Assembly (NCBI GenBank): GCA_035285325.1
Contig: JAYKJB010000059.1
Coordinates: forward strand, 1-51,581
DNA length: 51,581 nucleotides
Direction: 5' to 3'
Source: Candidatus Sericytochromatia bacterium
GTDB taxonomy: Bacteria > Cyanobacteriota > Sericytochromatia > S15B-MN24 > JAQBPE01
Shown piece by piece: positions 3,693 to 25,065 of this stretch (position 1 is its first letter; each line of letters starts with the position of its first letter). Under the pieces are notes generated by a model that searched no databases, was not told the origin of the DNA, and saw nothing but the letters and a program-made list of their open reading frames with translations. Made by a program: the position numbers and the translations under genes.

Positions 3693-3799
3693 CGCTGCCA
3701 CCTCTCCTGCCAAGCGAGCGTGCAACGACGGATCTATTCCCGGTTTGGCAACGAACGATCCGTTTTCAGGTCAGCGGTGCCTTCGGAAGGGGAGCTCGA

Positions 3800-5200
3800 T
3801 CAGAAAAGAAAGCTCACCCCGAGGCGCGCCACGCCGCCAAGCAGGCTCAGCAAGGGGCCTTCCGCCTCTGCCTGGAAGGGCAAGGCGTTGTAGCCGTCCA
3901 GATCCGCCGCCAGCAAGAGGTGTTCACTGAGGTGATACTCGCCACCCAGCGAGCCAGCGGCCCCCGGGACGAACCGCCCCAGCGTGGCCTGCCCGAACAT
4001 CGCGAGATTGCCCTTGAACCCGATCCGCAGCACGTTGCGACCCCAGTAAAACTTCTTGGCCAGCCCCAGATCCGCCAGCATGCCAGGACCAGCGGCGGAG
4101 ATCAGGCCCGCGGAGCCAAAGGTGGCGTAGGTCTCGGTGGGACCGGGCAGTAGCGGGGCCATGTCCCATTCCGCCGACACGCCACCGCCGGCGAAAGTGG
4201 CGCTGTAGCCGTCTGAGCGGCGCACGTAGGCCAGCGGCGCACGCAGGCCCAGATGCAGGCCCCACTTGGCGTCTTCCAGCAGTCGCTGGGAGGGGTCCAA
4301 GCGTTCGGTCAGGTAGAGCGGCTGGGCTTCACTGCGTTGGTCTCCAAGTTCGCGCAGCTTGACATAACCCGTCTGACGGGAGCCCTTCATGACCCGAAAG
4401 CCGGCATCGCGAGACAATCTCACGTTGCGCCCCAGGTTGAAGGCGATCCGGTCTCGGGCCACCGACCAGCCAGCCAGGCCGATCTCCAGGCGAAAACAGG
4501 CCTGCCGGGCCACGGCCCGTGCGGTGTCCTCTGCCAGTTCCTCGCAGCGATCCGCATAATCGCCGAAGGCCCGCTCAGGAGACTGCAGCGAAGCCACTGT
4601 CGCATCGCTCGCCAGCTGCTGAATCTGCAGCTGCAAGGCGTCCTGGCTGGTCTTTTCATCGTAGTTGAAACTGAAGGGCCGCTTGAGCGTCAGCGACTCG
4701 CTCAGGAGGGCCACCTCCCCGCCGGTGCTCAGGTCGTACAGCGCGACCCGCCACTCGATCGGACAGACCAGTTCGATCAGGGCAACCGCCTGGAAGCCGC
4801 CGCCCTCTCGCGGCTTCTGCTTCGTCTGGAGTCCCGTGCGCTCGATCCGCCCCACGCGCAGCGTCGGCACCAACACATAGCCGGAACCCGAGCTCCGGTT
4901 CTGGCTGCGCGCCTGCTGAAGCATGGCCGAGAGCCGAGCCCCACGCGCCAGCGGGACCTCGGCCAGGGCAAAGCGCCCCGTCTGACGCAGGGCCCGCAGC
5001 AATCCATCCCCCAGCGGCTGTTCGGCAGGCAAGGCCACGCCGAGCCAGGGGGCCTGATACTGCACGCTCGGGTCGTTGGGCGAGGCCTGGTAATCACCGG
5101 GCGCCGCCCAGGCGCCCGTCGGGTTGGCCAGCGCCAGCAGCAGGACGAGCACCAGGCGCCCGCCCCAGCGCTTGGACTCGTTCAAACGACTTGCCAACAT
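3800..5200 (-). CDS. Secreted outer-membrane-barrel-like protein with CsgG/FlgT-like N-terminal region
   Basis: 466 residues. A Sec signal peptide (RLVLVLLLALANPTGAWA) gives predicted cleavage near residue 33. Residues of about 50-230 carry the pattern LGDGLLRALRQTGRF, GYVLVPTLRVGRIE, then WRVALYDLSTGGEVALLSE, resembling the CsgG/TolB-N-like fold used by curli secretion and FlgT-type proteins. The next part, DRIAFNLGRNVRLSRDAGFRV, resembles the small C-terminal domain of FlgT. The last 170 residues alternate polar and hydrophobic residues in strand-like stretches and the chain ends in GVSFLF, a terminal-Phe signature of outer-membrane beta-barrels. Family assignment is inference. The start has no strong ribosome-binding site and lies only 10 bases after the stop of the 85-residue gene, suggesting coupled translation. 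Confidence 0.65.
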   Translation of the reverse strand: MLASRLNESKRWGGRLVLVLLLALANPTGAWAAPGDYQASPNDPSVQYQAPWLGVALPAEQPLGDGLLRALRQTGRFALAEVPLARGARLSAMLQQARSQNRSSGSGYVLVPTLRVGRIERTGLQTKQKPREGGGFQAVALIELVCPIEWRVALYDLSTGGEVALLSESLTLKRPFSFNYDEKTSQDALQLQIQQLASDATVASLQSPERAFGDYADRCEELAEDTARAVARQACFRLEIGLAGWSVARDRIAFNLGRNVRLSRDAGFRVMKGSRQTGYVKLRELGDQRSEAQPLYLTERLDPSQRLLEDAKWGLHLGLRAPLAYVRRSDGYSATFAGGGVSAEWDMAPLLPGPTETYATFGSAGLISAAGPGMLADLGLAKKFYWGRNVLRIGFKGNLAMFGQATLGRFVPGAAGSLGGEYHLSEHLLLAADLDGYNALPFQAEAEGPLLSLLGGVARLGVSFLF

Positions 5201-7265: not shown

Positions 7266-9434
7266 TCAGCTCGGTCGCACCACGGAGGCCGGCGCCACGT
7301 CTTCGTCGCCGGCGCCCGGGTCCTCGGTCAGCACCTCGACCACGCTGGCGGGATGCACCGTGGTGGCCATGTCGGCGAACTTGCCATCGACCGTCACGAG
7401 CCATTCCTCGCCCTCGTCGCCGTCCAGTTCCCGCTGAATCAGGGGCAACACGTCAGCCACCGTCAGGCGGTTGGCGAAGTCGCGGCGCAGCTGGGCCCCC
7501 TCCGGCAAGGCCAGGTCGAGCGCCACGGGCTCGCCCGCGAGCAACACCTGCAAGTTCGGGTTGCGCACCCGCAGGGGGCGATCGTTGACCTTCACCTGAA
7601 GGCGATCGCTGCCGGCCGGCAACACGTCGGCAATGGTCGGATGTGGGAACAGTTGCTGGGTCACCTCGACCGTTTCCCCGCCCGCGATCGACTCATTGAT
7701 ATCGGCCTCCCGCCCGTCGATCACGACCTTGATGCTGCGCAGCAAGTACTCCTGCGGCTCCCCGTCGAAGTAGTAACGCAGCACGGAATCGGGCGTCTCC
7801 ACCAGGCCCGCCTGCACCATGAGCGCCCGCACGCTGCGGTCGACGGTCATGATATCGCCGTCCTGCACGTGGCGATCGCCCATGATCGATTGGCCATTCA
7901 CCTTGACCAGCGGCGGGAAGTCGAGTTGCAGGCCATTGATCTGCACGCGCACGGGGCTCATGTCGACGATGTCTGACACCTGCAGCGGCGTGTTCTCATC
8001 ACCCGGGCGCGGACGCACGACCTCGATCGCCGAGCCGTCCGACAGCAGCTGGTCGGGCGTGGTCGGCTGGCCGTTCAGCAAGATCCGGGTGTAGCCCCCC
8101 GGCGTGCTGGGGAAGGAGCGTGCCTCGCCATTGACCGAGACCTGGATCAGGTGGACGGGACGCGGCATGAGCGCCTGCATGTCGTAACCGGCGGCCAGCA
8201 AGGCATCCTGGACCTTGGTGGTGCCCCAGTCTTCCAGGCTGATCACCTTGCCGTCGAGATAGACCGTCAGGAAGCGGAAGCCGGGGGCTTCCAGCGCGGC
8301 CAGGGCGATGCCCACCGGCGTCACGCCCATCGGGCCCTCCAGCAAGGGCGGGCAGCTCTCGATCCGACGCACCATCTCGGTGCCCCGCACGGCCACGCGG
8401 TTATCGGGCAGGCCGAGCGCCATCGCCAGCAAGGGGGCAATGCCCGGGAAGAGCGCCCCCCCACCGATCAGGATGATGGCCGAGGGTGGGGCCCCGTTCA
8501 TGCCGACGATCTGCTCGGCAATCTGCTTGACCAGGGTTTCGAGCGTCGGACGCACGGCCTGGCGAATCGCCTCGGCCGCGAAGGTGTGCGTCAGGCCGAG
8601 CACGTCGGTGAAGGTCACCGCGCCCTCGGTGGAGAGGGCATGCTTGACCCGCTCGGCCTCCATGAAGTCGAGCAGGTGCGCCTCGGCGATCGCCTCGGTC
8701 AGGGAATCGCCCGCCTGAGGCACCATCGCATACGCCGTCACGGTCCCGCCCTGGGTCAGGGCAATGTCCGAAGTGCCCGCCCCGATGTCGATCAGGGCCA
8801 GGTTGAGCGCCCGCATGTTGGCCGGAACCGCCGCATTGATGGCGGCGATCGGTTCGAGCGTGAGATTCACGACCTCGAGGCCCGACTGATGGCAGACCGC
8901 CACCAGCGAGTCCGTCACGACACGCGGCAGGAAGGTGGCAATCAGTTCCACCTCGATGCGCTTGCCACGCTGGCCTTCGAGGTTGGCGATCGGCTGCCCG
9001 TCGAGGTAGTAATGGACGATCGAGTAGCCGACGCAGTGGTTCTCATCCGAGCGCAGCGAGCCCACCGCCGCCTGGATCGCGGCCAGTTCCAGTGAACGAA
9101 GCCGCTCCTTGTCGATCATCGTGTCGAGACCAACGTCCTGACTCGAACGGGCCCGATGGGTCTTGAGCGCCCGCCCGGCCGCGGCGATCGCCACTTGGGA
9201 GAGCCGCTGGCCGGTCTGCGTTTCCAGGCGCTGGCGCACCGCCCGCACGGCCCGCACGACCTTGGGGATGTCGTGGATCTGCCCGTCCCGCATGGCCCGC
9301 TCTTCATGGGCTTCCAGCGTGATGTCCAGAATGCGCAGGCGATCGCCATCCGGTTGCGCCACCATGCCGATCACGTTGCGGGTGCCGATGTCCAGGGCAA
9401 AAATCGGGGCTCCGGGAGCAACCACAGGAGACAT
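7266..9434 (-). CDS. Large FtsA/PilM-like actin-fold ATPase with C-terminal beta-grasp-like region
   Basis: 722 residues, against about 420 for classical FtsA. The N-terminal 370 residues carry actin-superfamily signatures: FALDIGTRNVIGMV (phosphate 1), an inserted segment in the position of the FtsA 1C/SHS2 module, LIDIGAGTSDIAL (phosphate 2) and ILIGGGALFPGIAPLLA (adenosine motif). The C-terminal 350 residues contain short repeated units of the type VKVNGQ...VQDGDIMTV and ILLNGQPTTPDQLLSDG, suggesting ubiquitin/ThiS-like beta-grasp repeats. Similar long FtsA-domain proteins are known from Firmicutes and may act in envelope or pilus assembly rather than the divisome; no ftsZ or pil gene is adjacent. 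GAGGT lies 5 bases before the ATG at 9434. A TACAAT at 9467-9472 is a possible -10 without a clear -35. Confidence 0.75.
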   Translation of the reverse strand: MSPVVAPGAPIFALDIGTRNVIGMVAQPDGDRLRILDITLEAHEERAMRDGQIHDIPKVVRAVRAVRQRLETQTGQRLSQVAIAAAGRALKTHRARSSQDVGLDTMIDKERLRSLELAAIQAAVGSLRSDENHCVGYSIVHYYLDGQPIANLEGQRGKRIEVELIATFLPRVVTDSLVAVCHQSGLEVVNLTLEPIAAINAAVPANMRALNLALIDIGAGTSDIALTQGGTVTAYAMVPQAGDSLTEAIAEAHLLDFMEAERVKHALSTEGAVTFTDVLGLTHTFAAEAIRQAVRPTLETLVKQIAEQIVGMNGAPPSAIILIGGGALFPGIAPLLAMALGLPDNRVAVRGTEMVRRIESCPPLLEGPMGVTPVGIALAALEAPGFRFLTVYLDGKVISLEDWGTTKVQDALLAAGYDMQALMPRPVHLIQVSVNGEARSFPSTPGGYTRILLNGQPTTPDQLLSDGSAIEVVRPRPGDENTPLQVSDIVDMSPVRVQINGLQLDFPPLVKVNGQSIMGDRHVQDGDIMTVDRSVRALMVQAGLVETPDSVLRYYFDGEPQEYLLRSIKVVIDGREADINESIAGGETVEVTQQLFPHPTIADVLPAGSDRLQVKVNDRPLRVRNPNLQVLLAGEPVALDLALPEGAQLRRDFANRLTVADVLPLIQRELDGDEGEEWLVTVDGKFADMATTVHPASVVEVLTEDPGAGDEDVAPASVVRPS

Positions 9435-9500: not shown

Positions 9501-10835
9501 TCACGACTCTTGGCGCGGGACCCGCAGGCGAATTCGGCGCAGGGGGCGCTCGGCGGGCAGATCCTCGGAGAGCAGCGGATGAATGGGCGAAGCGAGCCCT
9601 GGCGCATCCGCACTCGGCTCCTCAGGGGGCCTCGCCGCAACCTCGGGAGTCGTCAGGGTGAGCGCAGCGGGGCGGTCCTCGGCCAGCTGAGCCGAAGGGG
9701 CCGGCACCTCGTCCTGGCTCGCCGGTAGAACGCGAGGCAGACCGAGCACAGGTGGCGCAAGCGGGACGTCCGCCGGCGGTCGCGACTCCTCTGCAGGAAT
9801 CACCGTCGGCACGGGTTCGTAGCGTGGGTGGGCCACGAAAGGAGTCACCAGCCGCACACACAGCATCTCGCCCCCCAGGCGTCGCACCGAGGGACCGGCA
9901 AAGGCCTCAACCGCCCGCTGCACGCTCGCCAGGATCGGCTCAGGCGCGCAACCGGGGCGCTCCCGCAAGACCTGCTGCAGGCGCTCCAGGCCGAAGGCCT
10001 CCCCCTCCCGGTTCTCCACCCGCAGCAGGGCTTCCGTGAACAGCAACAGGCTGTCCCCATCTGCCAGCCCGGCCTGCCCCTGGTCCAGCGGCGGCCCCGG
10101 CTCAGCCGGCAGCCCCCCCAGGGCGCGACTGCTCAGCAGGGTCAAAGAACCACCCCGGTGCAAGATGCAAGCCCCGTGAAAGCCAAGCCCCGCAAACAAC
10201 AACTGACCGGTGGACAGATCGAGCTGCGCGCTGAAGGCCCGCCAGGCCGACGGGGGCTCCCCCTCCTGGAGCAGGCGGGCCTGCATATCGAGCAGCAGGC
10301 GGCCCGGCGGCTGCGCCGCAGTGGCCAGCGCATCCCAGAGCAGCAGGCTGCCGGCTCGCTGCAACCCGCCGGCCAGATCCCTGGCCCGGCTCTCCCCGAC
10401 GAAAATGCCCAGCTGGGAGCGATTGTACAGTCGCCAGGTGCTCCAGGCGGCAGCCGGGGCGCCCCAACCCCGCGAGGCCAGTTCGACCCGCCAGGGAGAG
10501 GTCACGGCGTCCGGCGACCAGGCGGTGGGTGTCGGCGCCAAGGCGCGCTGCACCTGGGCTCGCGCGACCTGTCGCCACTCAAGAAGGTCACCCTGCCGAC
10601 GCCGCTGCCAGAGCCAGAGTGCGCCTCCCCAGAGGGCCCCGGCTCCCACCCCAGCCATCAACGCCAGCCCCAGCGGGCCTTTCAGGTCCGGAGACGCGGG
10701 GGGTAATTGGCGCGCCAGGGCATAGACCCAGCCCCCCACCCAGGCGACCTGAGCGCTCCCGATTCCCAGCACCCCGAGCCAGGTTCGGGGCGTCCAGGAG
10801 AATGAAGACGAAAAACGAAGGGGAGAGTGGGACAT
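9501..10835 (-). CDS. Membrane protein with degenerate SpoIIE/RsbU-type PPM phosphatase domain
   Basis: 444 residues from the ATG at 10835; a GTG nine bases earlier is possible and neither has a good ribosome-binding site. Two hydrophobic segments (about 16-40 and 54-76) precede a cytoplasmic domain. Its order of motifs follows SpoIIE-family phosphatases: LGIFVGESRARDLAGGL where the family has a metal-binding GDVSGHG-like motif, LFAGLGFHGACILHRGG, and GDSLLLFTEALLRVENREGEAFGLERL where the family has YTDGv.E...FG. The usual Asp residues are replaced (GES, TEA), so metal binding and catalysis are doubtful. The C-terminal 110 residues are Pro/Ala/Glu-rich. It follows the kinase/HD-GYP gene by 42 bases, suggesting a joint signalling role. 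Confidence 0.65.
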   Translation of the reverse strand: MSHSPLRFSSSFSWTPRTWLGVLGIGSAQVAWVGGWVYALARQLPPASPDLKGPLGLALMAGVGAGALWGGALWLWQRRRQGDLLEWRQVARAQVQRALAPTPTAWSPDAVTSPWRVELASRGWGAPAAAWSTWRLYNRSQLGIFVGESRARDLAGGLQRAGSLLLWDALATAAQPPGRLLLDMQARLLQEGEPPSAWRAFSAQLDLSTGQLLFAGLGFHGACILHRGGSLTLLSSRALGGLPAEPGPPLDQGQAGLADGDSLLLFTEALLRVENREGEAFGLERLQQVLRERPGCAPEPILASVQRAVEAFAGPSVRRLGGEMLCVRLVTPFVAHPRYEPVPTVIPAEESRPPADVPLAPPVLGLPRVLPASQDEVPAPSAQLAEDRPAALTLTTPEVAARPPEEPSADAPGLASPIHPLLSEDLPAERPLRRIRLRVPRQES

Positions 10836-10877
10836 CAAAGGCACATCGGCCAGCGGGCGGCGAGCCGATGGCCTCGC

Positions 10878-13800
10878 CTAGCCGGCCGTCTGGGGTTGCG
10901 TCGACTCGCTCGGGGTTTCCTTATCGTACATCACCACGCCCTCTTCCTCGATCATGGCGATGAATTCCGGGCCCAGTTCCGGATCGAAATGGCTGCCGAT
11001 GCCCTGCCGGATGATGTTCAGGGCCTGGGAAAGCGGCATGGCCTCGCGGTAGTCGCGCTTGGAGGTGATCGCGTCGAACACGTCTCCCAGGGCCAAGATG
11101 CGACCACCGAAGGGAATCTCCTCGCCCGCCTGATTGTTGGGGTAGCCCTTGCCATCCCACTTTTCGTGGTGGGCCCCGGCCATGGCGGGAATGTGCCGCT
11201 GGGCTTCCGGGAAGTGGATGTTGTCGAGAATCTCCCGGGTGTGGACCACATGCCGCTTCATGATCTCGTACTCCTCATTGGTGAAGGAGCCGGGCTTCTT
11301 GAGAATCTCGTCGGGCGTGCCGATCTTGCCCACGTCGTGAAGCAGGCCTGCGATGCGGATGTTCTCCACCTCCTCCTCGGGCAAGCCGATACGGCGGGCC
11401 AGGCGCACGCTGTACTCCGTGACGCGCGCGGAGTGACCTGCCGTGAGGGGGTGCTTGGCGTCGATCGACGCGCCGAGCGCGTGGACGAAACTGTAGAAGG
11501 TCTTTTTGAGGTCGTCGGCCAGTTGCATCGTCTTGGCGTGCAACTTGGCATTTTCGATCGAGACGGAGGCGTGGCCGGCGATCGCCTTGAGCAATTCCAG
11601 GTCCTTCTCGCCGAAGGCATTCACGACGGCCTGACTGTCGACGTAGAGCAAGCCGATCACCTCGGCCTTGGCCACGATCGGCACGCACATCACCATGCGC
11701 AGGTTCAACGCCATGATCGATTGCTGGAATTGGAATTCCTCGTCGTTCAGCGCATCGGCGACGTTCTCCGCCTCGCCCGTCTGGAGCACCTTGGCGCAGA
11801 TCGACTGGCTGACCTCGTGGTCCTGGTCCAGCGGCAGGCTGCTGCGGGTATCCCGCGCGGCGCGGCAGATCAGCTTGGAACCGCGATCCACCAGGAACAG
11901 GAAGCCCCGTTCGGCGCGCGACACCTCCAGGGTCATCTTCACAATCAGGTCGAGGACCTCTTCCATGTCCAGGGAACTGCTGATGGTCTTGCTGAGATGG
12001 TTCAGCATCTCCAGGCGTTTGCTCTTGTCGATCCACTCCTGATGCAAGCGGGCATTCTCGATTGCCCCGGCCGCCTGGGCCGCGAGGCTGAGCACCATTT
12101 CGAGATCGCTCGGCGTGAAGTTCTCGTTGACCGATTGCCGGTCGACGTAGATGGCGCCGACCACCTTGCCCTTGACGCGCATGGGGACGCAGATGACCGT
12201 GCGCAGATTGAGGTCGACCACCGACTGGCTCTGGTTAAAATTCTGGTCCGCAAGAGCGTCGAACACGCAGACCACCTCGCCCGTGCTGAGGACCTTCTCC
12301 GCGATCGACTTGGAGAACTGCCAGTCCAGCGGCGGCCGGCGATCGACATTGACGCGGCTGACCTGGGAGCGAATCTGGCCGTTCTCGAAGAACAGCAGGA
12401 AACCTCGCTCCGCCTCCGTCAGTTCCACGATCATGTCCACGGCCTGCTCCAGGATCTTGTCGAGGTCGTGCAGGTTGCTGACGGCCATCGAGAAGCGAAT
12501 CAACTGCTCCATGCGGCGATTGCTGGCCTGCAGCTCGCTGATCTCTTGCGTCTGCACCGACACCGTCCGCGCCATGACGTCGTATTCCTGCACCAGCGAG
12601 GCGATGCGTCGCGCCTCGTTGGCCGCGGCACTGGCCGCGTGGCCGAGTTCACGGCCGATCCAGCTGGTGCGTTCCTCCATCGGGGCATCTTCGGGCATGG
12701 CAGGGGAGACCTCCGGAATGGGGCCGGCCACGGGGGCAGGCGCCGGTTCGCTGACAGTGGCGGTGGCGCGGGCCAGCTGGGCCCGTTCGGTGAAGGACAG
12801 GAACTGGTCACGTTCATCCGCAGAGAGCGGTTCGAGCAATTCGTTGAGCTTGGCCAGGGCCTGCTGGCACCAGCGTGCCGACCGCTTGGGGTCAGCATTG
12901 GCGCGGGCCATGCCGTGCGCGGCGATCGCCTCGGCCGCCGGCAACCCGAGATCGATGGCCATGTCGACCGCTTCCTGGAAGTAGCCGAGCGCTTCGGGGC
13001 GCTCTCCCTTGGCCAGGGCCCACTCCCCCATCAGCCGCTCGCACTCCATCCGCAGGTGGCGCATGCCAAGCTGGCGAGCCGCTTCTGCCGCCCGTGTCAG
13101 GCGCTCGCCGGCCGCATCCAGACGGTTTTCGGTCAGGTCGAGCCAGGCGAGCCCCTTTTCGGCACGCACCACCACGTGCGGCTCGTGCCCTTTCAGGCCA
13201 TGCTCCTGAGCTCGCTCGAAATAGCTCCGGGCAGCGGGCGTCTCGCCCAGACGCGCGTGAATCTCGCCCATCAAGATCCAGAGCCGCGTCTCGATCTCGG
13301 TGTTGCCCGTGGAGACGACCAGGTCGCGCGCTTCCTGCGCCGCCCGCAAAGCGTCGTTCAGCCGGCCGAGGTAGAGCAGGGACTCGATCAAGTAAGGAAT
13401 CATCGACGAGAGCACGTAGCCACTGGTTTCCCGTGCCTCCGCCTCGAAACCGCGCAGGCGTTGCAGCACCCCGGCCCCTTGGCCCCGGTACAGTTCAGCC
13501 AGACACACCAGCACCCCGGAATAGGGCATGGTGACCTTGTGGTGGACCTCCAGGGCGATCTTCCGGCAGTCCTCGGCCACGGCCTGCATGCGGGCAAAGT
13601 CGCCGCGTTCATGCAACACCAAGGCGTGGTTCAGCAGCGCCACGGCCAGGTCATCGGAACAACCCAGTTCGCGCATGATCTCCGCGTTGCGGACGGTCGC
13701 GGCCTCGGATTCCTTGAACATCCCGCTGTGCAGCAGCACGTTCGCCATCACCATGTAGGTGTAGCCCTCGCCGTACTTGTCGCCCACCGCCTGCTGCGTG

Positions 13801-16391
13801 TCGACGGCCGCGCGCAGGTGCGTCAAGCCCGCCTCGCGGGTGTCGGGGGAAAGCGTCAACAGGTAACCCAGCAAACAGGCGCTGCGCGCCCCGTAGAAGG
13901 ACTCGCCCTCCGCCCGGCAGAAACGCACCCCCTCCTCGAACACCTCGCGGGCCCGGTCATTTTGGCCCAGGAAGAACAAGGCCCGGCCCAGATTCGAGAG
14001 CGCCCGCGCCTTGGCTCGCGTGGCCCCGATCTCCGTCGCGATGGCGATGCAGCGCTCGTTGAGTTGGGCTGAGCGCTGCAGATCTTCGGCGCCCCCCTTG
14101 AGCTGCGCGGAGTGGGCCAGATACACCAGAATTTCCAGGGACCGGGGCTTGTCACCAGCCTGTTCCGCCAAGGCCCTGGCCTGATCGAGGGTCTTGATCG
14201 CCATGTCGAGGTCATGGCGCACCTGGTACAAGTACCCAATCAATTGCAGATAATGGCTGCGCAGGTCTTCCGCCTCGGGCACGCTCTGCAACAAGGCCCA
14301 ACCTGGTTCAATCAGCGCTCCGGCCATCTCGACGGAGTAGCGCAACAGGCCTTCCCCGGCCTTGAGGGCAAATCGGACCGCCTTCTCTCGCGCCTGACCG
14401 GCCAGATGGTGGCGTGCCACGGTGCTGAGCAGGTCGAGGTCGCCTTCTCCTTCCGGCGGCAACCGCTCTTCCAAGGCCTCGGCCACGCGGGTATGCAGGG
14501 CGGCCCGGGCGTCCGTGGCCAGGTTCTGGTACACCGCCTCCCGCATTTCACTGCCCACATAGGCATAGGCCACCCCATCCACCTGCAGGACGCGGGCCTG
14601 GCAAAGGTCATCCAGAACGTCCAACAACACGTCTTCAGACAGACCACTGAGCTGCTTCACCGTCCCGAAGGGCACGGGTTGCCCGAAGACGGCGATCAGG
14701 TCGAGCACCCCGCGCGCATCGGCGCCAATATCGGCCAGGCGAGCCAGGAACATCTCCGCGACATCGGACGGAAGTTGAGAGGTGGCCACCGTGGCCGGAA
14801 GATCCCACAGGCCCTTGGCCTTCCCGAACACCCCGGTGCGCACCAGATGCTCCAGCAGGCTGTTCAAGCGGGACGCCACCCCATCGGACCAGTCGGCCAG
14901 TTGCTGCACGAGGCTATCGGGAAGCGTCTTGGTGCCCAGCATGCTGCTGAGCATGGCTCGCACTTCGGACAGGTCGAAGGGCTTGACCTCCATCTTCTGG
15001 GCCGCAGTCGCTTCGGCGCGCCCGTGCGTGAACAGCAACAGCAGGGGCGTGCCCTGCAAGTTGCGCTGCAGGTAGGTGACGGTCTCGAGCGACAGCGGGT
15101 CCGCCAGGTCCCAGTCTTCAAAGACCAGCACGCCACCGCTCTGTTTCAGCGTCGCTGTCACCAGGTTGGTGATGGCGGACTGAATCAGCAGACGTTCCTG
15201 GTCCGGTTCCATCGCGGCCGGGGCCTCGGAGGCCTGGCCCAGTTCCGGCAGCAATTTCCGCAGCACCGGCGTCACGTCGGCCAGCACGGTCGGGCAGACC
15301 TCTCGTGCCCTGACGATGATGCCCTTGAGGATCTGAATGAAGGGCCCGTAGGGCAGCCGGGACGGGACGGCCCGCCCCAGGTAGTAGGGCACGTTTTCGA
15401 GCTGAACCGAGAAACGAAACTCCTCCAGCAGCCGGCTCTTACCGACGCCGGACAGACCAAACACGGCCAGGCTGGTGCCCTCGCCCCGCTGGATCAGGCT
15501 ACCGAGCGCCGACTGCAGGGCGTCCAGCTCTGTGCGGCGCCCCACGAACTCGCTGGTGAGCAGCGTGGCATCCAGGCTCTCCTCCGTATCCACCCCCAGC
15601 GCCGCGAGCACCTCCGCCACAGCCTGGTAACGGGCCACGGGCTCTTTTTCGAGCATCCGCAACAGGATCGCCTGCAAGCCATCGGACACCGGCCCGCAAG
15701 CGCCCTTGAGCGGCGGCACCGGCGCCTGGGCATGCGCACGCAGCACCGCCACGGCGTTCTCGGAGGTGAACGGGGGATGGCCGGCCAGCAGGTGATAGGC
15801 CACAGCCCCCAGGGCGTAGATGTCGCTGCGCTGGTCGATCCGCCCCCCCTTGGCCACCTCGGGGGCCATGTAGGCAATCGTGCCCCGGATTGTTCCGTGG
15901 GCCGTTCCGGCCACGTCCACCAGGCCGAAGTCCATCAGCTTGACCACCCCGTCCGGTCGAATCCGGATGTTCTCGGGCTTCAAGTCGCCGTGCACGAAGC
16001 CCTGCTGGTGAATGAAGGAGAGGGCCAGGCAAAGCTGCCGCAGAATCGGCAGCACGTCGGCTTCCGGGAGCGGGAGCAGTTCGTCCAGCCCCTTGCCCTC
16101 CACCAGTTCCATGGTGAAGTAGGGCTTGCCATCGGGCAGCAGGCCAAAATCGAACACCTGGCAGTTGTTCGGGTGGCGGAAGCGGGACATGGCGCGGAAT
16201 TCGCGTTTCATGAACAAGCCAGCGTTTTCGACCGCCGCGGCGTCCGCACCCGGCTTCGGGTTCAAAAGTTTGAGGGCCACGCGGTCCCCGCTGGTCTGGT
16301 CCTCGACCAGCAGCACCGAGCCCATGCCGCCTTCACCCAGGCTGGAAAGCGCCTTGTAGCGCGTGCCGACGTCCGCGAGTATGTCTGCCAT
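10878..16391 (-). CDS. Ser/Thr kinase - STAND-type ATPase - helical repeats - GAF - GAF - HD-GYP signalling protein
   Basis: 1837 residues from the ATG at 16391, with CAGGT upstream. Residues 10-270 are a eukaryote-like protein kinase: glycine loop GEGGMGSV (19-26), ALK lysine 41, catalytic loop HGDLKPEN with Asp136, DFG 154-156, APE 176-178. Residues of about 282-560 are an AAA/STAND ATPase: FVGRRTEL, Walker A GLSGVGKS (312-319), Walker B-like GVLVFEDWD. Residues of about 600-1180 are TPR-like alpha-helical repeats. A coiled coil leads to GAF 1 (about 1300-1440) and GAF 2 (about 1467-1617), each with the FxxxxS(I/M)xxLNLRxV(M/I)CVP pattern. Residues 1627-1837 are HD-GYP, with HDVGKIG near 1683 and HHEKWDGKGYP near 1737, the signature of c-di-GMP phosphodiesterases. 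The N-terminal layout resembles cyanobacterial HstK-type kinases, which usually end in a histidine kinase instead. Soluble; all catalytic motifs look intact. Confidence 0.9.
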   Translation of the reverse strand: MADILADVGTRYKALSSLGEGGMGSVLLVEDQTSGDRVALKLLNPKPGADAAAVENAGLFMKREFRAMSRFRHPNNCQVFDFGLLPDGKPYFTMELVEGKGLDELLPLPEADVLPILRQLCLALSFIHQQGFVHGDLKPENIRIRPDGVVKLMDFGLVDVAGTAHGTIRGTIAYMAPEVAKGGRIDQRSDIYALGAVAYHLLAGHPPFTSENAVAVLRAHAQAPVPPLKGACGPVSDGLQAILLRMLEKEPVARYQAVAEVLAALGVDTEESLDATLLTSEFVGRRTELDALQSALGSLIQRGEGTSLAVFGLSGVGKSRLLEEFRFSVQLENVPYYLGRAVPSRLPYGPFIQILKGIIVRAREVCPTVLADVTPVLRKLLPELGQASEAPAAMEPDQERLLIQSAITNLVTATLKQSGGVLVFEDWDLADPLSLETVTYLQRNLQGTPLLLLFTHGRAEATAAQKMEVKPFDLSEVRAMLSSMLGTKTLPDSLVQQLADWSDGVASRLNSLLEHLVRTGVFGKAKGLWDLPATVATSQLPSDVAEMFLARLADIGADARGVLDLIAVFGQPVPFGTVKQLSGLSEDVLLDVLDDLCQARVLQVDGVAYAYVGSEMREAVYQNLATDARAALHTRVAEALEERLPPEGEGDLDLLSTVARHHLAGQAREKAVRFALKAGEGLLRYSVEMAGALIEPGWALLQSVPEAEDLRSHYLQLIGYLYQVRHDLDMAIKTLDQARALAEQAGDKPRSLEILVYLAHSAQLKGGAEDLQRSAQLNERCIAIATEIGATRAKARALSNLGRALFFLGQNDRAREVFEEGVRFCRAEGESFYGARSACLLGYLLTLSPDTREAGLTHLRAAVDTQQAVGDKYGEGYTYMVMANVLLHSGMFKESEAATVRNAEIMRELGCSDDLAVALLNHALVLHERGDFARMQAVAEDCRKIALEVHHKVTMPYSGVLVCLAELYRGQGAGVLQRLRGFEAEARETSGYVLSSMIPYLIESLLYLGRLNDALRAAQEARDLVVSTGNTEIETRLWILMGEIHARLGETPAARSYFERAQEHGLKGHEPHVVVRAEKGLAWLDLTENRLDAAGERLTRAAEAARQLGMRHLRMECERLMGEWALAKGERPEALGYFQEAVDMAIDLGLPAAEAIAAHGMARANADPKRSARWCQQALAKLNELLEPLSADERDQFLSFTERAQLARATATVSEPAPAPVAGPIPEVSPAMPEDAPMEERTSWIGRELGHAASAAANEARRIASLVQEYDVMARTVSVQTQEISELQASNRRMEQLIRFSMAVSNLHDLDKILEQAVDMIVELTEAERGFLLFFENGQIRSQVSRVNVDRRPPLDWQFSKSIAEKVLSTGEVVCVFDALADQNFNQSQSVVDLNLRTVICVPMRVKGKVVGAIYVDRQSVNENFTPSDLEMVLSLAAQAAGAIENARLHQEWIDKSKRLEMLNHLSKTISSSLDMEEVLDLIVKMTLEVSRAERGFLFLVDRGSKLICRAARDTRSSLPLDQDHEVSQSICAKVLQTGEAENVADALNDEEFQFQQSIMALNLRMVMCVPIVAKAEVIGLLYVDSQAVVNAFGEKDLELLKAIAGHASVSIENAKLHAKTMQLADDLKKTFYSFVHALGASIDAKHPLTAGHSARVTEYSVRLARRIGLPEEEVENIRIAGLLHDVGKIGTPDEILKKPGSFTNEEYEIMKRHVVHTREILDNIHFPEAQRHIPAMAGAHHEKWDGKGYPNNQAGEEIPFGGRILALGDVFDAITSKRDYREAMPLSQALNIIRQGIGSHFDPELGPEFIAMIEEEGVVMYDKETPSESTQPQTAG

Positions 16392-18367: not shown

Positions 18368-19552
18368 TCACCGGGCGTAGAGTCGCACCGTCTGCTGCAC
18401 CGCCAGTCCGGCGAGCTTGCCGCCGCCCCCCGTGGCACGACTGGCCAACGCCAAGCGCACGAGCGCTTCACGCCCGGTCACCGGCCCCCCGATCAGGACC
18501 TCGAAGCCAAAGGGACGGTGTTCAGACGCCAGGGCATAGCGAGGGGTCTGCAACTGGCCACCCTGCAACAGGTCCACGGCGGGAACCGCGGGGGGCGACA
18601 ACGCCGTGCCGTTGTTGAAGGCGACCATGGCCAGCGCCCGTCCGTCCTGAACGCCGAAGTGGATGGCCCCCCGATAATCACTGGCCGTCAGGCGCGAGGT
18701 GGCGGGGGAGAGGTCCGAGGCCCCGTCTCGCAGCAGTTGATAGAAACCGGCGGGCGTGAGGCCGGCGGTCGCGTCGGACACGCTGAGGTCGACCGCCCCG
18801 GCATAGGTCTGCCGCAATGTCGCCAATTTCTCGTCGAGATACAGGTCGGGCGCCGTGGCACCCGCGCGCACCCGGACGACCCAGGAGCGCACCTCCTCGT
18901 AATCGAGCACGGGCTGACTGGCCCAGCGCATGAGCGTGTAAGTATAGCCATCCACGGCGGGGTCACTGCCGCGCACCAGCGGCTCGCCTCCCGCCAGCGG
19001 CTTCTTGGCCAGGAAGTAAAAGTAGAACTTGTAAACGCTGAAACGATGGCTGTCAGTGCCGAACACCTGCGCCAGAGGCCCCTGGCCGGCAGGCAGCGCG
19101 GCGTCGTCCGCCACCGTGATGCCAGGTTCGACACAGACCATCCACAGGGCGTTGCCGACGCTGCCGGCGACACTGCCCCCCGAGGAGAAATTCGCCTCCG
19201 GCAGGAACTCGGGCAGCACCAGCTCGGTGGTCTCGACCTGCGGCGTCAACCCAGCGGCCAGGTAGGGGCGCAGATCCGTGCGCGCCAGCCAGCTGTTGGC
19301 CGCATCCCCCCTCGCAAAGACCTTGCGGACCGCCTTGAGACGCCGGAACAGTTCATCCAAGGCCTGGTCGCCGGTCTGCTTGATCTGGCTAGAGCCCACC
19401 GCCGCGTTCATGGTGGTGCTGGCTCCGAGGTAGGTGTTGATCAGGGTCCCACCCACGAACAGGGCGATCGCCGCGGCGAGCAAGACCTCGACCAGGGTGA
19501 AACCACCCGCGGCGAACCTAATAGAGCGAGACCGGAATTTCATGGAAGACAT
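18368..19552 (-). CDS. Type IV prepilin-like protein (third of three)
   Basis: 394 residues. A short basic leader ends in AAGG followed by [18 protein letters not shown]: prepilin-peptidase cleavage after Gly, N-methylated Phe, Glu at +5 and a single hydrophobic helix, as in PulG/PilW-type pseudopilins. The remaining 350 residues form an unrecognised globular part, larger than usual for a minor pilin. The start overlaps the end of the 1356-residue prepilin gene by 35 bases (ATG at 19552) or 26 bases (ATG at 19543), showing that the two are one transcription unit. It is the last gene of the trio. Confidence 0.8.
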
Positions 19553-22500
19553 AATGCCCCGGTAGGGTGTAGGCGGCGGAGCCGTCCAGAGGATCGAGAT
19601 CGCTGTGGCGATAGCCCTCGACGCGCAGTTGATAGGTGCCCGGCGTCAGTCCTGTTACATCCCAAGAGGCGGTAAAGGAAGGGGGGTAGCTTCCGGTCGG
19701 CTCAATCCCCGCTATATTTGGCGGAATTCCGGGCTCGGTTGCCCCATCGACGCTCAGGCCCCCGGATAGCGAGGCCGTTCGCCACTCGCCATCGGGTAGA
19801 CGACGGAGCTTCACGAAACAGCGTACCTCAGCGGGGCCAGAGGAACCAGGTGGATAGACGGCCGGCAAGTCATACAGGGGGCTGTGAGGACGCCCATCCG
19901 AGCGAACCCATTTGGCATACACCTTGATGCTGGGAGAGGTTCCGGATATGGAGAATTTCTCCCCCCGCGTGGGACTGATCATCTTGATGCGGGGCAACAG
20001 TTTGATGTTGTACTGACCCAGATCCGGCAATCCGGAGGTTCGACCGCCATCCAGGTAAGTCGCCAGCATGCCGGCTACCGCCGTATCGAAGATGCGAGGC
20101 ACCTCGCTCACGCTGTTCGGCACCAGGGTATTGGGGACCACCACGGCCTGCAAGTCGAACGGATAGGGCACCGCACTGGGGTTGGCGGGCGGTGATGCGT
20201 ACCGGAGATACATCGGCGCCAAGGCCAGACCTGAGGTGGTATGGTCGTAGTAGGCCGCAGGCGCAGGGCTCCCGGTCAGCAAGGGCGCGGCGGTGGTGCG
20301 CGCAGCCGGGTAGAGCGCCAGCCCCCAATCATCGGGCGTGCTGCTGGGTTGAGGCGCGATGCCGAAGCGAGCCTGGCCCGCAGCCAGCACGGACAGGCCC
20401 AGCGAGTCGGCCCAGGCTCGGCCCGCCGTGGTCAACGATGCCGCCGCCGCGTCCCCGGCATCAAACACACTGACAGGCGCCCCGAGCAAGGCCGCCAGAC
20501 CGGTCAACCCCACTTCCTTTCGGTTATGCGCGGGATTCCCGTCAGCGCGGGCATCCCAGCCCGTCGCATCGCCGATCGCCACTCGGCGATACAGCGAGGA
20601 GGAGAGATTGCCTTTGGTGGCCCATTCGGCCGTAAAACGCCCCGAGGGATAGAGTTCTCCCAACCAGGGAAGCGACAACCATTCACCCGGGTTGGCAGAG
20701 CGCACCAGACGGGTGCGCTCCCCGAACAATTCGTCGAACTCCTCAGGATTCGAACTCAAATAAGGAGCCGCCTCGGGCGACAGGCCGCTCACGCCGTCAA
20801 TCGAGCCCGAAAGCGAAAATTCGCCCCCCAGCCCGATGTATCGGGCGGGAGCACCCGTCGGATTGACAAACACCACCCCATTGCGCAGCAAGGCCTCTCG
20901 CAACAGCCGGTAGAACAGTGGTGCATTGACATGCGAACCATTCCAGCTATCCGCCGAGTGAGAGAATGCCGTGTTGACGCTATCGGAGGCGGCGGTCCCC
21001 ATCTCGGCGAGCTCGCCGCTGCTCAGGAAGGGGTTGGCCGGCGCCACGAACGTCGTGCTGTTGTTCACTCCGGAATAGACGGCTTGACCAGGCCGATAAT
21101 CCTTCCAGAAGACGTTCAACAGCGGATTGGAGGGACTCTGATTGGCCTTGATTCGCAGGTCGAGATAGGGGCTGTGCCGCGGATCTCCCAGCAGCGAAAT
21201 CTGATCTGTGGGAGGAACCCCCGCATAGCGCCCCCCTCCCGACCACCAGCCACCGTCAGAGGCCGCTCCGACATAGGCATAGGTGCGACTCACACTGGGC
21301 ACACGCTCCTGCAGGCCCGCGTAGCCTGAACCGGTGGCCAGTTGAGTGACCACTTCAAAACGCCGCCCCGCCGCCGCCGCCAGCAGCGAGAGTTCAATGC
21401 CGATGCGCGCGGTGTTGCGTGGGCCGCGATAGTTCGGGTTGCTGCTCGCGGCCGTTGAGGGGGTTGGAGTCGGGGTCGGCGTTGGAGTTGGAGTCGGCGT
21501 CGGAGTTGGAGTTGGAGTCGGGGTCGGCGTCGGAGTTGGAGTCGGCGTCGGGGTCGGAGTTGGAGTCGGCGTCGGAGTCGGAGTCGGGCTCGGAGTGGGG
21601 GTGGGGGGGGGGTTATTGCCCCCCCCTTGGCCCCCGCCCTGGCCCCCGCCCTGGCCCCCGCCTGAGCCCCCGCCTTGCCCACCGCCCGGTTTGCCCTGAG
21701 CGAGTTGAAACGAATCCCCGCCGCCGCCGCCGCCTGCCGGCACGCCGGCATCCAGGAAGGGGAGCAGCGGGTCGGGGAAGTACTGCAAGCCGTGCAATTT
21801 GGCCTCTGCGCTGGCGTGGTCGATGCCGTAAACACTGCCGTCGTCCACGGTCTGCCGAGCGTCATAATCCAGATCGCTGACCTGAATGATCAGGTCGTCC
21901 CCGTCGAAGACCGGATCCGCGTCCCCCTCTCCGGCCGCAGGTGCCTCGCTGCCATGATGCGAGACACCGTCAGAATGGGCCGTCACGTGCGGCCCGCTGT
22001 GCTCGCCGCGCCCGGCGGCGCCTTCGCCAGCGAGGGTCGCGCCGGCTGCCAGCGCGGCGGCCGCAGCGGGTGGCCAGGCGGCAACCCGCACGTAACGTGT
22101 CCCCGCACCGGTGGTTCGCTCGCGCTGCACCGTCCAGATTTTCACGTCCTCGGCGGTGATGGTGCCATCGCCATTCTGGTCTTGCAGGTAGGGACGGATG
22201 CCCTTGATCACGATGCGCGCCTCGCTGGCGTGATGAAGGGACCCACTGTTCAGCCAGTCCGACTTGATGAAGCGGTTGGCATCCCCGGCGTCTGAGCTGG
22301 GATAGAACGTGTTTTCAGAGGTCGGCTGCCCATCCGCCATGAAGGGATGCACCAGCAAACGCAAGGGCTCATCGACTGGCGTGACCAGCTTGTAGGGATG
22401 GGTCACCAGGCGGCGCTCCTTGACGCGGGCATCGGAACTGGTATCACCAGGGTCCTTGGCCGCGTCGCTGTAATTGCGCAAGGGAACGACGGGCAACAAT

Positions 22501-23588
22501 TCCCCGTGCAGATTGACGAGCACGGCCTGGGCATATTTCCCGGTGTCATCCCGCAGCATGTCCTCCAGCAACTGGCGATAACTCAGCGGACTGACATCAG
22601 GACCATCCGCCGCAGCACCCGTGGGGAGCTTCACCGTGCCGAAAGCCTCTTCGTCGGCCGTCGTGAACTCATCCGCGTAACGCACGGCGTGATTGAACTG
22701 ATCGGCCATCGCATAATGGGTGTCATTGGCAGATTCAGCGATGGCACGACCGCGCAGATATCGCCCGCCGAAGGACTCGAGGTCGAGGTATCGCGGACTG
22801 TCGACCCCATCTTGAAGCCGCCCGGGATAAAAGTAGGTCCAGGCCATGGGGTCCGACTCGGCCCCATCCAGCGGTTTCTCATCATTGATGTAAGGCTGAT
22901 ACTGGGGGTCTCGCCCCTCACTCAGGCGCGTCACAAAATGAGTTCGGAATTGAAATCCCGGGTGCTGGGAGGCGAGTTTCGACAGCGCAGCGCTGAACAC
23001 GGAGCGCGCCGCCGAGGGCGACGGGTAAAACGCCTCGGTGTCGTCCTTGCGGATCAGGTGGGGCAGGTTCTCGAGCGACAGGACATAAATGTCGATCACC
23101 TGGCGGGCCCCCAAGGCGAGGCCATCGGTGCGGACCACGTTCGAGACATCGACCAACGGCTCCCCGGCCGGCACGGATACTTGATCCGAAGTGTTGTGCC
23201 AAATCTTGACCGACACGAGATAGGCCTGAGAATCACCGGCCACCGACGTCACCGTGATGGCCCGCACGTATTTGTAGCGCTGTGTCCTCGCATCCTTTGG
23301 ATTCGCGCTGAGGGAATCATCCGCGGACAGGCCAGGCAAGGTGGAGAGCACGAAGGATTGGCTGTTGTGAAATCGCAGGGGCGAAGTCGCGTTGGGGGCC
23401 GACCCCCCTCGCGAACTGATCTCCTCGATCATCTGCAGGCCCTTTTGCATGGCGAACGCACGGTCACGCTCGTTGACTCCAGCGCGAAGGCCGCTGGTGA
23501 TGAACGCCCCCAAAGCCAGTAGAACCAAGCCGGTCACGGTCACGGAGATCAGGACTTCGATCAGATTGGCGCCACGGCGACCCAGCAT
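19518..23588 (-). CDS. Giant prepilin-like surface protein with EF-hand-like loop, Gly-rich and Pro-Thr repeats
   Basis: 1356 residues. The leader MLGRRG is followed by [21 protein letters not shown]: class III signal with Glu at +5 if cleavage follows Gly 6. Residues of about 467-480 read [13 protein letters not shown], an EF-hand/dockerin-type calcium loop. Residues of about 633-658 are a Gln/Gly-rich GGGQGGG repeat, followed by a Pro-Thr repeat of about 50 residues (to about 708), a flexible wall- or space-spanning linker. A second large ectodomain ends in a Ser/Pro-rich beta-sandwich-like part ([15 protein letters not shown]). Minor pilins are normally 150-400 residues, so this is exceptional; a tip adhesin role is inference. 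AGGGG lies about 10 bases before the ATG at 23588. The upstream prepilin stops 13 bases before. Confidence 0.8.
21461..21611 (-). repeat. Pro-Thr coding microsatellite
   Basis: About 150 bases made of near-exact hexamers encoding alternating Pro and Thr (with one Ser), adjacent to a Gly-rich 12-base-unit repeat at about 21612-21690. Hexamer and 12-mer units keep the reading frame when copies are gained or lost. Confidence 0.9.
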
Positions 23589-23601: not shown

Positions 23602-24945
23602 CTACAAGGCCGGCACAGGTGGTTCGTCGAGCACCCGCACACTGGAATAATCGAGTCTGTAGCCTGCAATCGCGGCGAGGGCCGCATCCAGTTCCGCCTG
23701 AGAATAGCGCAGGGAGGCCTCACTCCCCACACGTCCCAGCAAAGTGACAGGTCCCCCCGCAACCACGCCGCCGAGCACCTGGGTCAGGTTGCGCTGAGTA
23801 TAGGCCCCCGTGGTCACGATCAACCCTCGCCAGGCAATACCACCTGGCACGCTCAGGCCGTCAAGCGAAAGATCTCCCTCCACGAACAACAGACCGCTCC
23901 CCGCAAGAGGTTGGCTGGCGTCGAAGGTTGCTGAGCCTTTCAGATACAGAAAAACCTGGTCTGGAAGGTTGGCCGGCAAGGTCTCACTTGCCGTGAGGTC
24001 AACCACCGGGGTGGCCAGTCCCTGAATGGCGGCCAATTCGCCACTGCCGAAGAGTTCCCGCCATTGATTCGCCGCCACCCCGTCCACGTGCGTGACCAGG
24101 TTCGCATCTGACTGGCCGGCCAGCGGCGGCAACGCCGAGTTGCCGTAGTCGATGGTGCCGCTCTCGCTCACGCTGGCCGTCCGCAACCAGTAGGGGCGTC
24201 CCGTCCCATCCAGCACGTCGAGGCGCAACGCGGCGGTGCCATCCACCGCCGTCAGGCTGGTGGCACTGTTGGAGAAACCATAGAGCGCGGCCTCCCGGTA
24301 ACGTGGATGGACGAGCGGCAACTCGGCCTCCACCGTGAGGCTACGCTTGCGTGGATCCGTGTCGAAGGTCAACCCGTCGGCCTGGCTGAACACGTAGGCG
24401 CGACATCGCACCAGCCAGACCTCGCCGGGCTGACGCCCGCGCTCCCGTCCGATGTCCCGGGCCACCCATGTCACCCCGCTGGCATAGCGGTCCGGATCGG
24501 CCGCGCCCGCTTGAGCGAGCCCATTTCGAGCAGGCGCGTCAGCCGAGCGTCCAATTTCGTAGCGGGCGTGAACCTGTCGGCTGGCATCCAGGACGTACTC
24601 GTTGACCAGCCCCAGTTGCTCCTCACCTTCCAAGGTGTCGGCCGTCTCATCCGGGTCGATCGAGCCGGAGGCCTTCGGGTCGAACATCGCCACCGGTTGG
24701 TAGGGCTGACGTTTCAGCCAGGCCAGGGCGTGGTTGACGCCCGTGAGGGCAACATTGAAGAGTTGGGTGTCTTGTCGGGCGCGCCGCCCCTGTTTCAAGG
24801 AATCCGTCAGGTACTGGGTGCCTGCCAAGATGAAGACCGTGGTGAGTGCCGCGAACAGGACCACCTCGAAGAGGCCAATTCCGGGCCGAGGGCGCTTCGG
24901 TGCCAACGGGCGAGCAGCAGCGGCCACTGTCCCAGCGTGGTGCAT
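23602..24945 (-). CDS. Type IV prepilin-like protein (first of three)
   Basis: 447 residues from the ATG at 24945. The basic Pro-rich leader ending PKRPRPG is followed by IGLFEVVLFAALTTVFILAG, a prepilin signal with Glu at +5 when cleaved after Gly. The frame is open to a GTG at 25044, only 21 bases after the dnaX stop; none of the starts has a good ribosome-binding site. The long start would give an unusual 55-residue leader. The C-terminal half has a PilX-like/parallel-beta flavour (SGLLFVEGDLSLDGLSVPGG, then GVVAGGPVTLLGRVG), seen in proteins with polymer-forming beta-solenoid segments. It opens the prepilin trio and may be read from the dnaX transcript. Confidence 0.75.
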   Translation of the reverse strand: MHHAGTVAAAARPLAPKRPRPGIGLFEVVLFAALTTVFILAGTQYLTDSLKQGRRARQDTQLFNVALTGVNHALAWLKRQPYQPVAMFDPKASGSIDPDETADTLEGEEQLGLVNEYVLDASRQVHARYEIGRSADAPARNGLAQAGAADPDRYASGVTWVARDIGRERGRQPGEVWLVRCRAYVFSQADGLTFDTDPRKRSLTVEAELPLVHPRYREAALYGFSNSATSLTAVDGTAALRLDVLDGTGRPYWLRTASVSESGTIDYGNSALPPLAGQSDANLVTHVDGVAANQWRELFGSGELAAIQGLATPVVDLTASETLPANLPDQVFLYLKGSATFDASQPLAGSGLLFVEGDLSLDGLSVPGGIAWRGLIVTTGAYTQRNLTQVLGGVVAGGPVTLLGRVGSEASLRYSQAELDAALAAIAGYRLDYSSVRVLDEPPVPAL

Positions 24946-25065
24946 CCAGGCCAACAGGAAAGCACGCGTCAAGGGGCGCCGCAACACGGGTGTTTTCCCG
25001 AAAGCACAGTCATAAAAAAGATATTCCCGACAAGGAGCAGGCACTCACGCCGTCCGGCGCGCGCG

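Follow-up and report, generated by a model that had tools for sequence, protein, structure and literature searches.

A Sericytochromatia protein with a Ser/Thr kinase, a STAND-type ATPase and an HD-GYP domain in one chain, probably formed by replacement of a GGDEF output

The window analysed here, a stretch of DNA of 51,581 nucleotides from a Sericytochromatia bacterium, encodes a single protein of 1837 amino acids in which a Ser/Thr kinase, a STAND-type ATPase, a TPR region, two GAF domains and an HD-GYP domain follow one another in that order. Considered together with its relatives, this protein is probably a cytoplasmic, HstK-like receptor in which an HD-GYP phosphodiesterase has taken the place of the original diguanylate cyclase (GGDEF). 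The wiring of Ser/Thr kinases to c-di-GMP signalling is little known, and here both are found in one chain together with an ATPase, in a lineage related to the Cyanobacteria that has received little study.

The gene is one uninterrupted frame from the ATG at position 16391 (Table 1), a start which is supported by the orthologue, since the frame of the latter opens just two codons before the matching Met. This orthologue, on contig JAQBPE010000345.1 of 'Cyanobacteria bacterium RYN_339' (G001), comes from an independent genome of the same family and another genus, and it has the same architecture with 59-60% identity overall. Chance is excluded as a source of the architecture by the E-values of the domain matches and by the conserved orthologue. 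The source is a draft genome (3.83 Mb, 138 contigs, 98.6% complete), in which an assembly might join two neighbouring genes into a chimera, but the same architecture and junction recur in the independent genome, with 88% identity across GAF2 and HD-GYP, and the probability of such an error is negligible. The initial annotation had proposed a kinase, an ATPase, two GAF domains and an HD-GYP domain in one 1837-residue chain, as the frame, Pfam and the orthologue confirm, and had correctly placed K41, D136, DFG (D154), GLSGVGKS (312-319) and HHEKWDGKGYP (1741-1751); it overlooked the MalT-like TPR region of about 520 amino acids that Pfam detects.

Table 1. Features of the kinase–HD-GYP gene and of the adjacent gene in the window.
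Feature	Residues	Window positions	Strand	Evidence
Whole gene, kinase-STAND-TPR-GAF-GAF-HD-GYP, 1837 aa	1-1837	10878..16391	-	Stop-free translation; Pfam; orthologue of same architecture
Ser/Thr protein kinase domain	8-268	15588..16370	-	Pfam Pkinase (PF00069) at 12-257, E 2.2e-39; PknB/StkP structures; motifs; invariant columns
STAND-type NTPase	269-560	14712..15587	-	Pfam AAA_16 at 281-452, E 1.8e-17; motifs
Winged-helix/arm region of STAND module	561-690	14322..14711	-	Position and pattern; co-aligns with STAND paralogues; model not confident
MalT-like TPR sensor region	691-1215	12747..14321	-	Pfam TPR_12 1.8e-20 and TPR_MalT 7.5e-9, at about 690-1215
GAF1	1300-1448	12048..12494	-	Pfam GAF at 1309-1444, E 1.3e-34; BLAST
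GAF2	1460-1620	11532..12014	-	Pfam; BLAST; GAF tree
Long helix from GAF2 to output	1595-1644	11460..11609	-	AlphaFold2, helix 140-189 of model
HD-GYP domain	1626-1815	10947..11516	-	Pfam HD_5 at 1643-1806, E 1.7e-41; PmGH 3.8e-60; fold search; residue tables
SpoIIE-like membrane protein, 33 nt past the stop of the kinase gene		9501..10844	-	Pfam SpoIIE 9.2e-11

The kinase domain, which matches the PknB and StkP structures with E-values of 1e-42 to 1e-39, has the complete catalytic set of a Hanks-type kinase (K41, E64, D136, N141 and D154, from the motif table and the invariant columns) and is of the non-RD type, reading HGD here and HCD in the orthologue and most relatives. In the ATPase, Walker A (GLSGVGKS) and Walker B (VLVFED, 421-426) are followed by the helical repeats of the TPR region, which is the arrangement that marks a STAND module; its GxP motif is degenerate (GVA, against GNP in the orthologue and most relatives), and it is for this reason that the module is called STAND-type rather than canonical STAND. 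The Walker B of the orthologue reads LEA, with no acidic pair, and these departures indicate that ATP-driven assembly may be weak. In a structure model covering residues 1-690 just the kinase is acceptable; the STAND part is of low confidence and too poor for a fold search. Residues 270-823 match the middle of the TIGR03903 model (TOMM system kinase/cyclase fusion; E 1.3e-47), but membership of that family is not indicated, because the score is 162 bits against a cut-off of 706 and the output is an HD-GYP domain rather than a cyclase. A Pfam search of the protein for HisKA and HATPase domains gave no match, so the output that defines the HstK/cbSTKIII group is absent. A reading of the gene as part of a defence system was rejected, the PADLOC matches being generic kinase matches.

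The origin of the output domain is indicated by the relatives of the front end. The same genome encodes many paralogues, whose outputs, assigned by Pfam and phmmer, are GGDEF in L009, L013, L042/L016, L047 and L021 (the last at a contig edge) and a histidine kinase (HisKA and HATPase) in L046, the others having GAF domains only or nothing after the TPRs. Elsewhere in the class the same front end mostly ends in GGDEF or SpoIIE and rarely in a histidine kinase. The expectation that HstK-type proteins normally end in a histidine kinase holds for the cyanobacterial cbSTKIII proteins (PMC2176072) but not for this lineage, in which GGDEF and SpoIIE outputs dominate. At the loci L009-L022 and L042-L047 of the genome, HstK-like proteins have undergone a lineage-specific expansion in which the outputs are interchangeable; SpoIIE is added to these outputs in other members of the class.

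One paralogue, L009 (G000:C63, 17-23 kb), has the order kinase-STAND-TPR-GAF-GAF-GGDEF and is 37% identical to the window protein over residues 8-1638; both it and its orthologue L048 carry an intact GGDEF domain. When 46 proteins were compared from the kinase to the TPRs in a tree made by a quick method and read as unrooted, the two HD-GYP proteins formed a pair (support 100) inside a group (support 100) with the GGDEF-ended L049, L013 and L050, and the output label requires a single change on this tree; L049 and L050 retain GGEEF and the metal motifs. GAF1 is 51% identical to GAF1 of the GGDEF-ended L056 (BLAST), and GAF2 with its linker is 58% identical to GAF2 of the GGDEF-ended L057 (BLAST and GAF tree). 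The HD-GYP domain is at most 50% identical to domains of unrelated GGDEF-HD-GYP or GAF-HD-GYP proteins, and identity to the family stops in the helix that joins GAF2 to the output. Because the front end, both GAF domains and the linker match GGDEF-ended relatives and the HD-GYP domain does not, the simplest history suggested by these alignments is the replacement of GGDEF by HD-GYP at the helix after GAF2. The fusion of a ready-made GAF-GAF-HD-GYP protein to the front end is disfavoured, since the GAF pair and the linker resemble those of HstK-GGDEF proteins, and the free GAF-HD-GYP proteins (L039-L041) group elsewhere (support 97).

The assignment of the terminal fold, on which the initial annotation had staked its proposal, is supported by sequence and by structure prediction. 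Among solved structures, GAF2-HD-GYP has its best match in PmGH (4mcw; E 3.8e-60), a GAF-HD-GYP protein that is active as a c-di-GMP phosphodiesterase, followed by V-cGAP3 (5z7c; E 8.5e-45). An AlphaFold2 model built from the window protein and its relatives has pLDDT 92-99 over the HD-GYP domain (residues ~1656-1815), and in a Foldseek search this model retrieves 4mcw first (8.6e-19), with further matches to DvhD (9rbz; TM 0.84) and PA4781 (4r8z; TM 0.81); the terminal domain is thus an HD-GYP fold, as proposed. All seven ligands of the dinuclear class are present (H1653, H1685, D1686, H1714, H1741, H1742 and D1770), as are the lysine of HDxGK (K1689), D1773 and the GYP motif (1749-1751). The initial annotation had called all catalytic motifs intact, which is a slight overstatement: besides the GxP motif, the exceptions are two positions that correspond to D183 and E185 of PmGH and are occupied by H1647 and L1649, both changes being shared by the two orthologues. 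The third metal of PmGH is bridged by E185; replacing this residue with Ala strongly lowers activity and replacing D183 with Ala abolishes it, and HD-GYPs without E185 are predicted to be dinuclear (PMC4159591). The trinuclear (E/D-T-G) subgroup has Glu or Asp at the E185 position, where both orthologues have Leu. Ligation is complete for the dinuclear type only, and a dinuclear site is predicted. The loss of D183 and E185 is not in itself decisive for inactivity, because V-cGAP3, annotated as a cGAMP-specific phosphodiesterase, has Ser and Tyr at these positions. Dinuclear HD-GYPs are said to halt after one hydrolysis step (PMC8177086), and the domain would hydrolyse c-di-GMP probably at a two-metal centre, and chiefly to pGpG.

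The draft genome encodes 14 GGDEF, 7 HD-GYP and 4 PilZ domains, and a search of it for EAL domains found none; c-di-GMP appears, from this draft inventory, to be both made and read in the cell. Among the seven HD-GYP proteins (L001-L007), only the window protein and L004 (337 aa) retain all seven ligands and the lysine, the other five deviating at core ligand or lysine positions; one of these proteins, L003, is a GGDEF-HD-GYP protein with HDVGM in place of HDxGK. Subject to the H1647 and L1649 replacements and to the draft state of the genome, the window protein is therefore one of the two best candidates for c-di-GMP degradation, and as one of two HD-GYP proteins with a complete core in a genome without EAL it could matter for the c-di-GMP balance of the cell.

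Two other functions of the domain have to be weighed against hydrolysis of c-di-GMP. The HD-GYP domain may be a non-hydrolytic module, either a receptor for the messenger or a docking site whose GYP loop binds a GGDEF partner, in which case the kinase would be the real output. The replacement in both orthologues of two residues important in PmGH is consistent with such a role, as are the deviations in five of the seven HD-GYPs of the genome and the example of DvhD, which is close in fold, has been solved in complex with c-di-GMP and aligns SQ with the HD pair. A pure receptor would, however, be expected to shed its ligands as DvhD has done, and this domain has lost none of the seven dinuclear ligands, retains both the lysine of HDxGK and the GYP motif and is 93% conserved between genera, in a genome which, having no EAL domain, needs some competent HD-GYP; a receptor role is on this evidence unlikely, though the most probable of the alternatives. 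It is improbable that the domain is an active phosphodiesterase for 3'3'-cGAMP or pGpG instead of c-di-GMP: some HD-GYPs prefer cGAMP and PA4781 prefers pGpG (PMC8177086), and V-cGAP3 likewise lacks D183 and E185, but the GGDEF outputs of the sister receptors are canonical, and PilZ proteins are encoded in the genome.

A comparison of the two orthologues shows how unevenly selection has acted along the chain. Identity between the two genera is 58% in the kinase, 44% in the NTPase, 35% in the winged helix and 49% in the TPR region, against 89% in GAF1, 86% in GAF2 and 93% in HD-GYP. Fourfold-degenerate sites match at 0.47-0.69, compared with 0.41-0.57 expected at saturation (winged helix 0.30). 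Since the HD-GYP domain is 93% identical while silent sites are near saturation, the conservation of GAF-GAF-HD-GYP mainly reflects strong purifying selection on the output and not recent exchange; the possibility that the C-terminal half had recently passed from one genome to the other, considered in view of its 86-93% identity, was rejected, because the fourfold sites are near saturation there too. The front and the output differ greatly in their rates of evolution, as though the output were held while the input changed. This pattern bears on the idea that the protein is an HstK relative like any other, which works through its kinase and ATPase and whose C-terminal domain is a mere appendage subject to drift. 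Outputs do switch often in the family (GGDEF, SpoIIE, histidine kinase or none), but a domain that is the best conserved part of the chain at near-saturated silent divergence is the opposite of drift, and the idea is very improbable.

The combination has a narrow distribution in the material searched. A search of all 18 genomes of the class for HD_5 found an HD-GYP output on this front end only in the window protein and its G001 orthologue; among the matches listed, the remaining frame of more than 1300 aa (G007:C69) is a GGDEF-HD-GYP protein without a kinase. The latter frame (L135, G007:C69:9500-17500) has 1604 aa, and its HD-GYP is degenerate, the HD pair reading CD. When the phylum was searched (386 genomes), the front-end matches that were long and reached E <= 1e-30 lay in this class; outside it, matches were in frames of less than 800 aa. 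In 72,556 plasmid records no place covers 80% of the query, and the best places listed end before or just inside the HD-GYP domain; in ten genomes of other phyla none of the listed frames combines kinase and HD-GYP. A non-exhaustive scan of genome contigs with six short patterns yielded, among the matches listed, no HD-GYP-ended member besides the orthologue. The kinase-ATPase-GAF-HD-GYP architecture was not found in the full-text papers searched.

The SpoIIE-like gene next to the kinase gene also adjoins the orthologue (L055 6138-8048, - strand; E 5e-37). In the alignment the metal-binding Asp positions of the phosphatase are lost in the window copy and partly lost in the orthologue, so that the window protein is likely to be a pseudophosphatase, and it is possibly a partner of the kinase protein. 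The version in L055 includes a LysM-like stretch as well. Further products that recur on the orthologous contig, in a rearranged order, are a PilM/FtsA-like protein, a nucleotidyltransferase and a PLD protein. The window also encodes, at 7266-9434 (-), an actin-fold protein of 722 aa which matches FtsA, PilM and MreB models, has a long extra C-terminus and is 72% identical in the orthologous contig. The 1356-aa product of 19518-23588 (-) has a prepilin-like N-terminus (GANLIEVLI), a long Thr-Pro repeat and no Pfam match, and the adjacent 18368-19552 has a weak N_methyl match; these products are possibly giant pilin-like surface proteins. Large open frames at 828-3725, 3800-5200 and 23602-25044 (all -) match no Pfam family above the cut-off.

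Domain order, fold, conservation, the swap of the output and the enzyme inventory come from the data above, whereas enzymatic activity, the substrate, clustering and any influence of phosphorylation are inferred from known STAND, GAF and HD-GYP proteins; it is plausible that phosphorylation and ATP-driven clustering govern the HD-GYP domain. In such a mechanism the TPR region would read a ligand or partner and the two GAF domains would read small molecules; this sensing would lead to nucleotide exchange in the STAND ATPase and to self-assembly, and the assembly would activate the non-RD kinase. The change would then travel along the two GAF domains and the long helix behind them until it reached the HD-GYP dimer; this dimer would hydrolyse c-di-GMP, and chiefly to pGpG because its centre probably holds two metals. 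Sister receptors with intact GGDEF in the same cell would do the opposite, so that the family could raise or lower c-di-GMP according to the receptor engaged. A bolder and rather improbable extension is that synthesising and hydrolysing paralogues co-assemble through their common STAND, TPR and GAF parts into mixed clusters, where the local c-di-GMP level would be fixed by the kinase state and by the proportion of GGDEF and HD-GYP subunits; if this were true, the family would constitute an ATP-driven, kinase-tuned c-di-GMP rheostat built by a one-domain swap.

Several known systems share parts of this design. The HstK/cbSTKIII proteins (Anabaena Alr2258 and relatives; PMC2176072) also have an N-terminal Ser/Thr kinase, one or more GAF domains and a C-terminal output in one chain, but are defined by a HisKA and ATPase output, whereas the window protein ends in HD-GYP and its close relatives in GGDEF or SpoIIE. 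PmGH shares the GAF-helix-HD-GYP module, the core metal ligands and the GYP motif; it differs in having a trinuclear iron site with E185 and D183, where the window protein has Leu and His and a predicted dinuclear site, and in having no kinase, STAND or TPR part. The TIGR03903 fusions likewise join a kinase to a nucleotide-messenger enzyme, but form a cyclase family. Clostridium thermocellum has a kinase-TPR-GGDEF protein of 1826 aa (PMC1262709) which, by its description, likewise combines a Ser/Thr kinase and TPRs with a c-di-GMP enzyme in a chain of about 1830 aa; it is a synthase where the window protein is of the hydrolase type, and GAF or ATPase parts are not described there. Because that protein has been in print since 2005, the coupling of a kinase to a c-di-GMP enzyme has a precedent, and what is new, relative to the papers and collections searched, is the hydrolytic output. 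The paralogue L009 and its orthologue L048 have the same chassis as the window protein with the opposite enzyme, GGDEF, and such sister proteins form a natural pair for the study of how one body controls the synthesis and the breakdown of a messenger.
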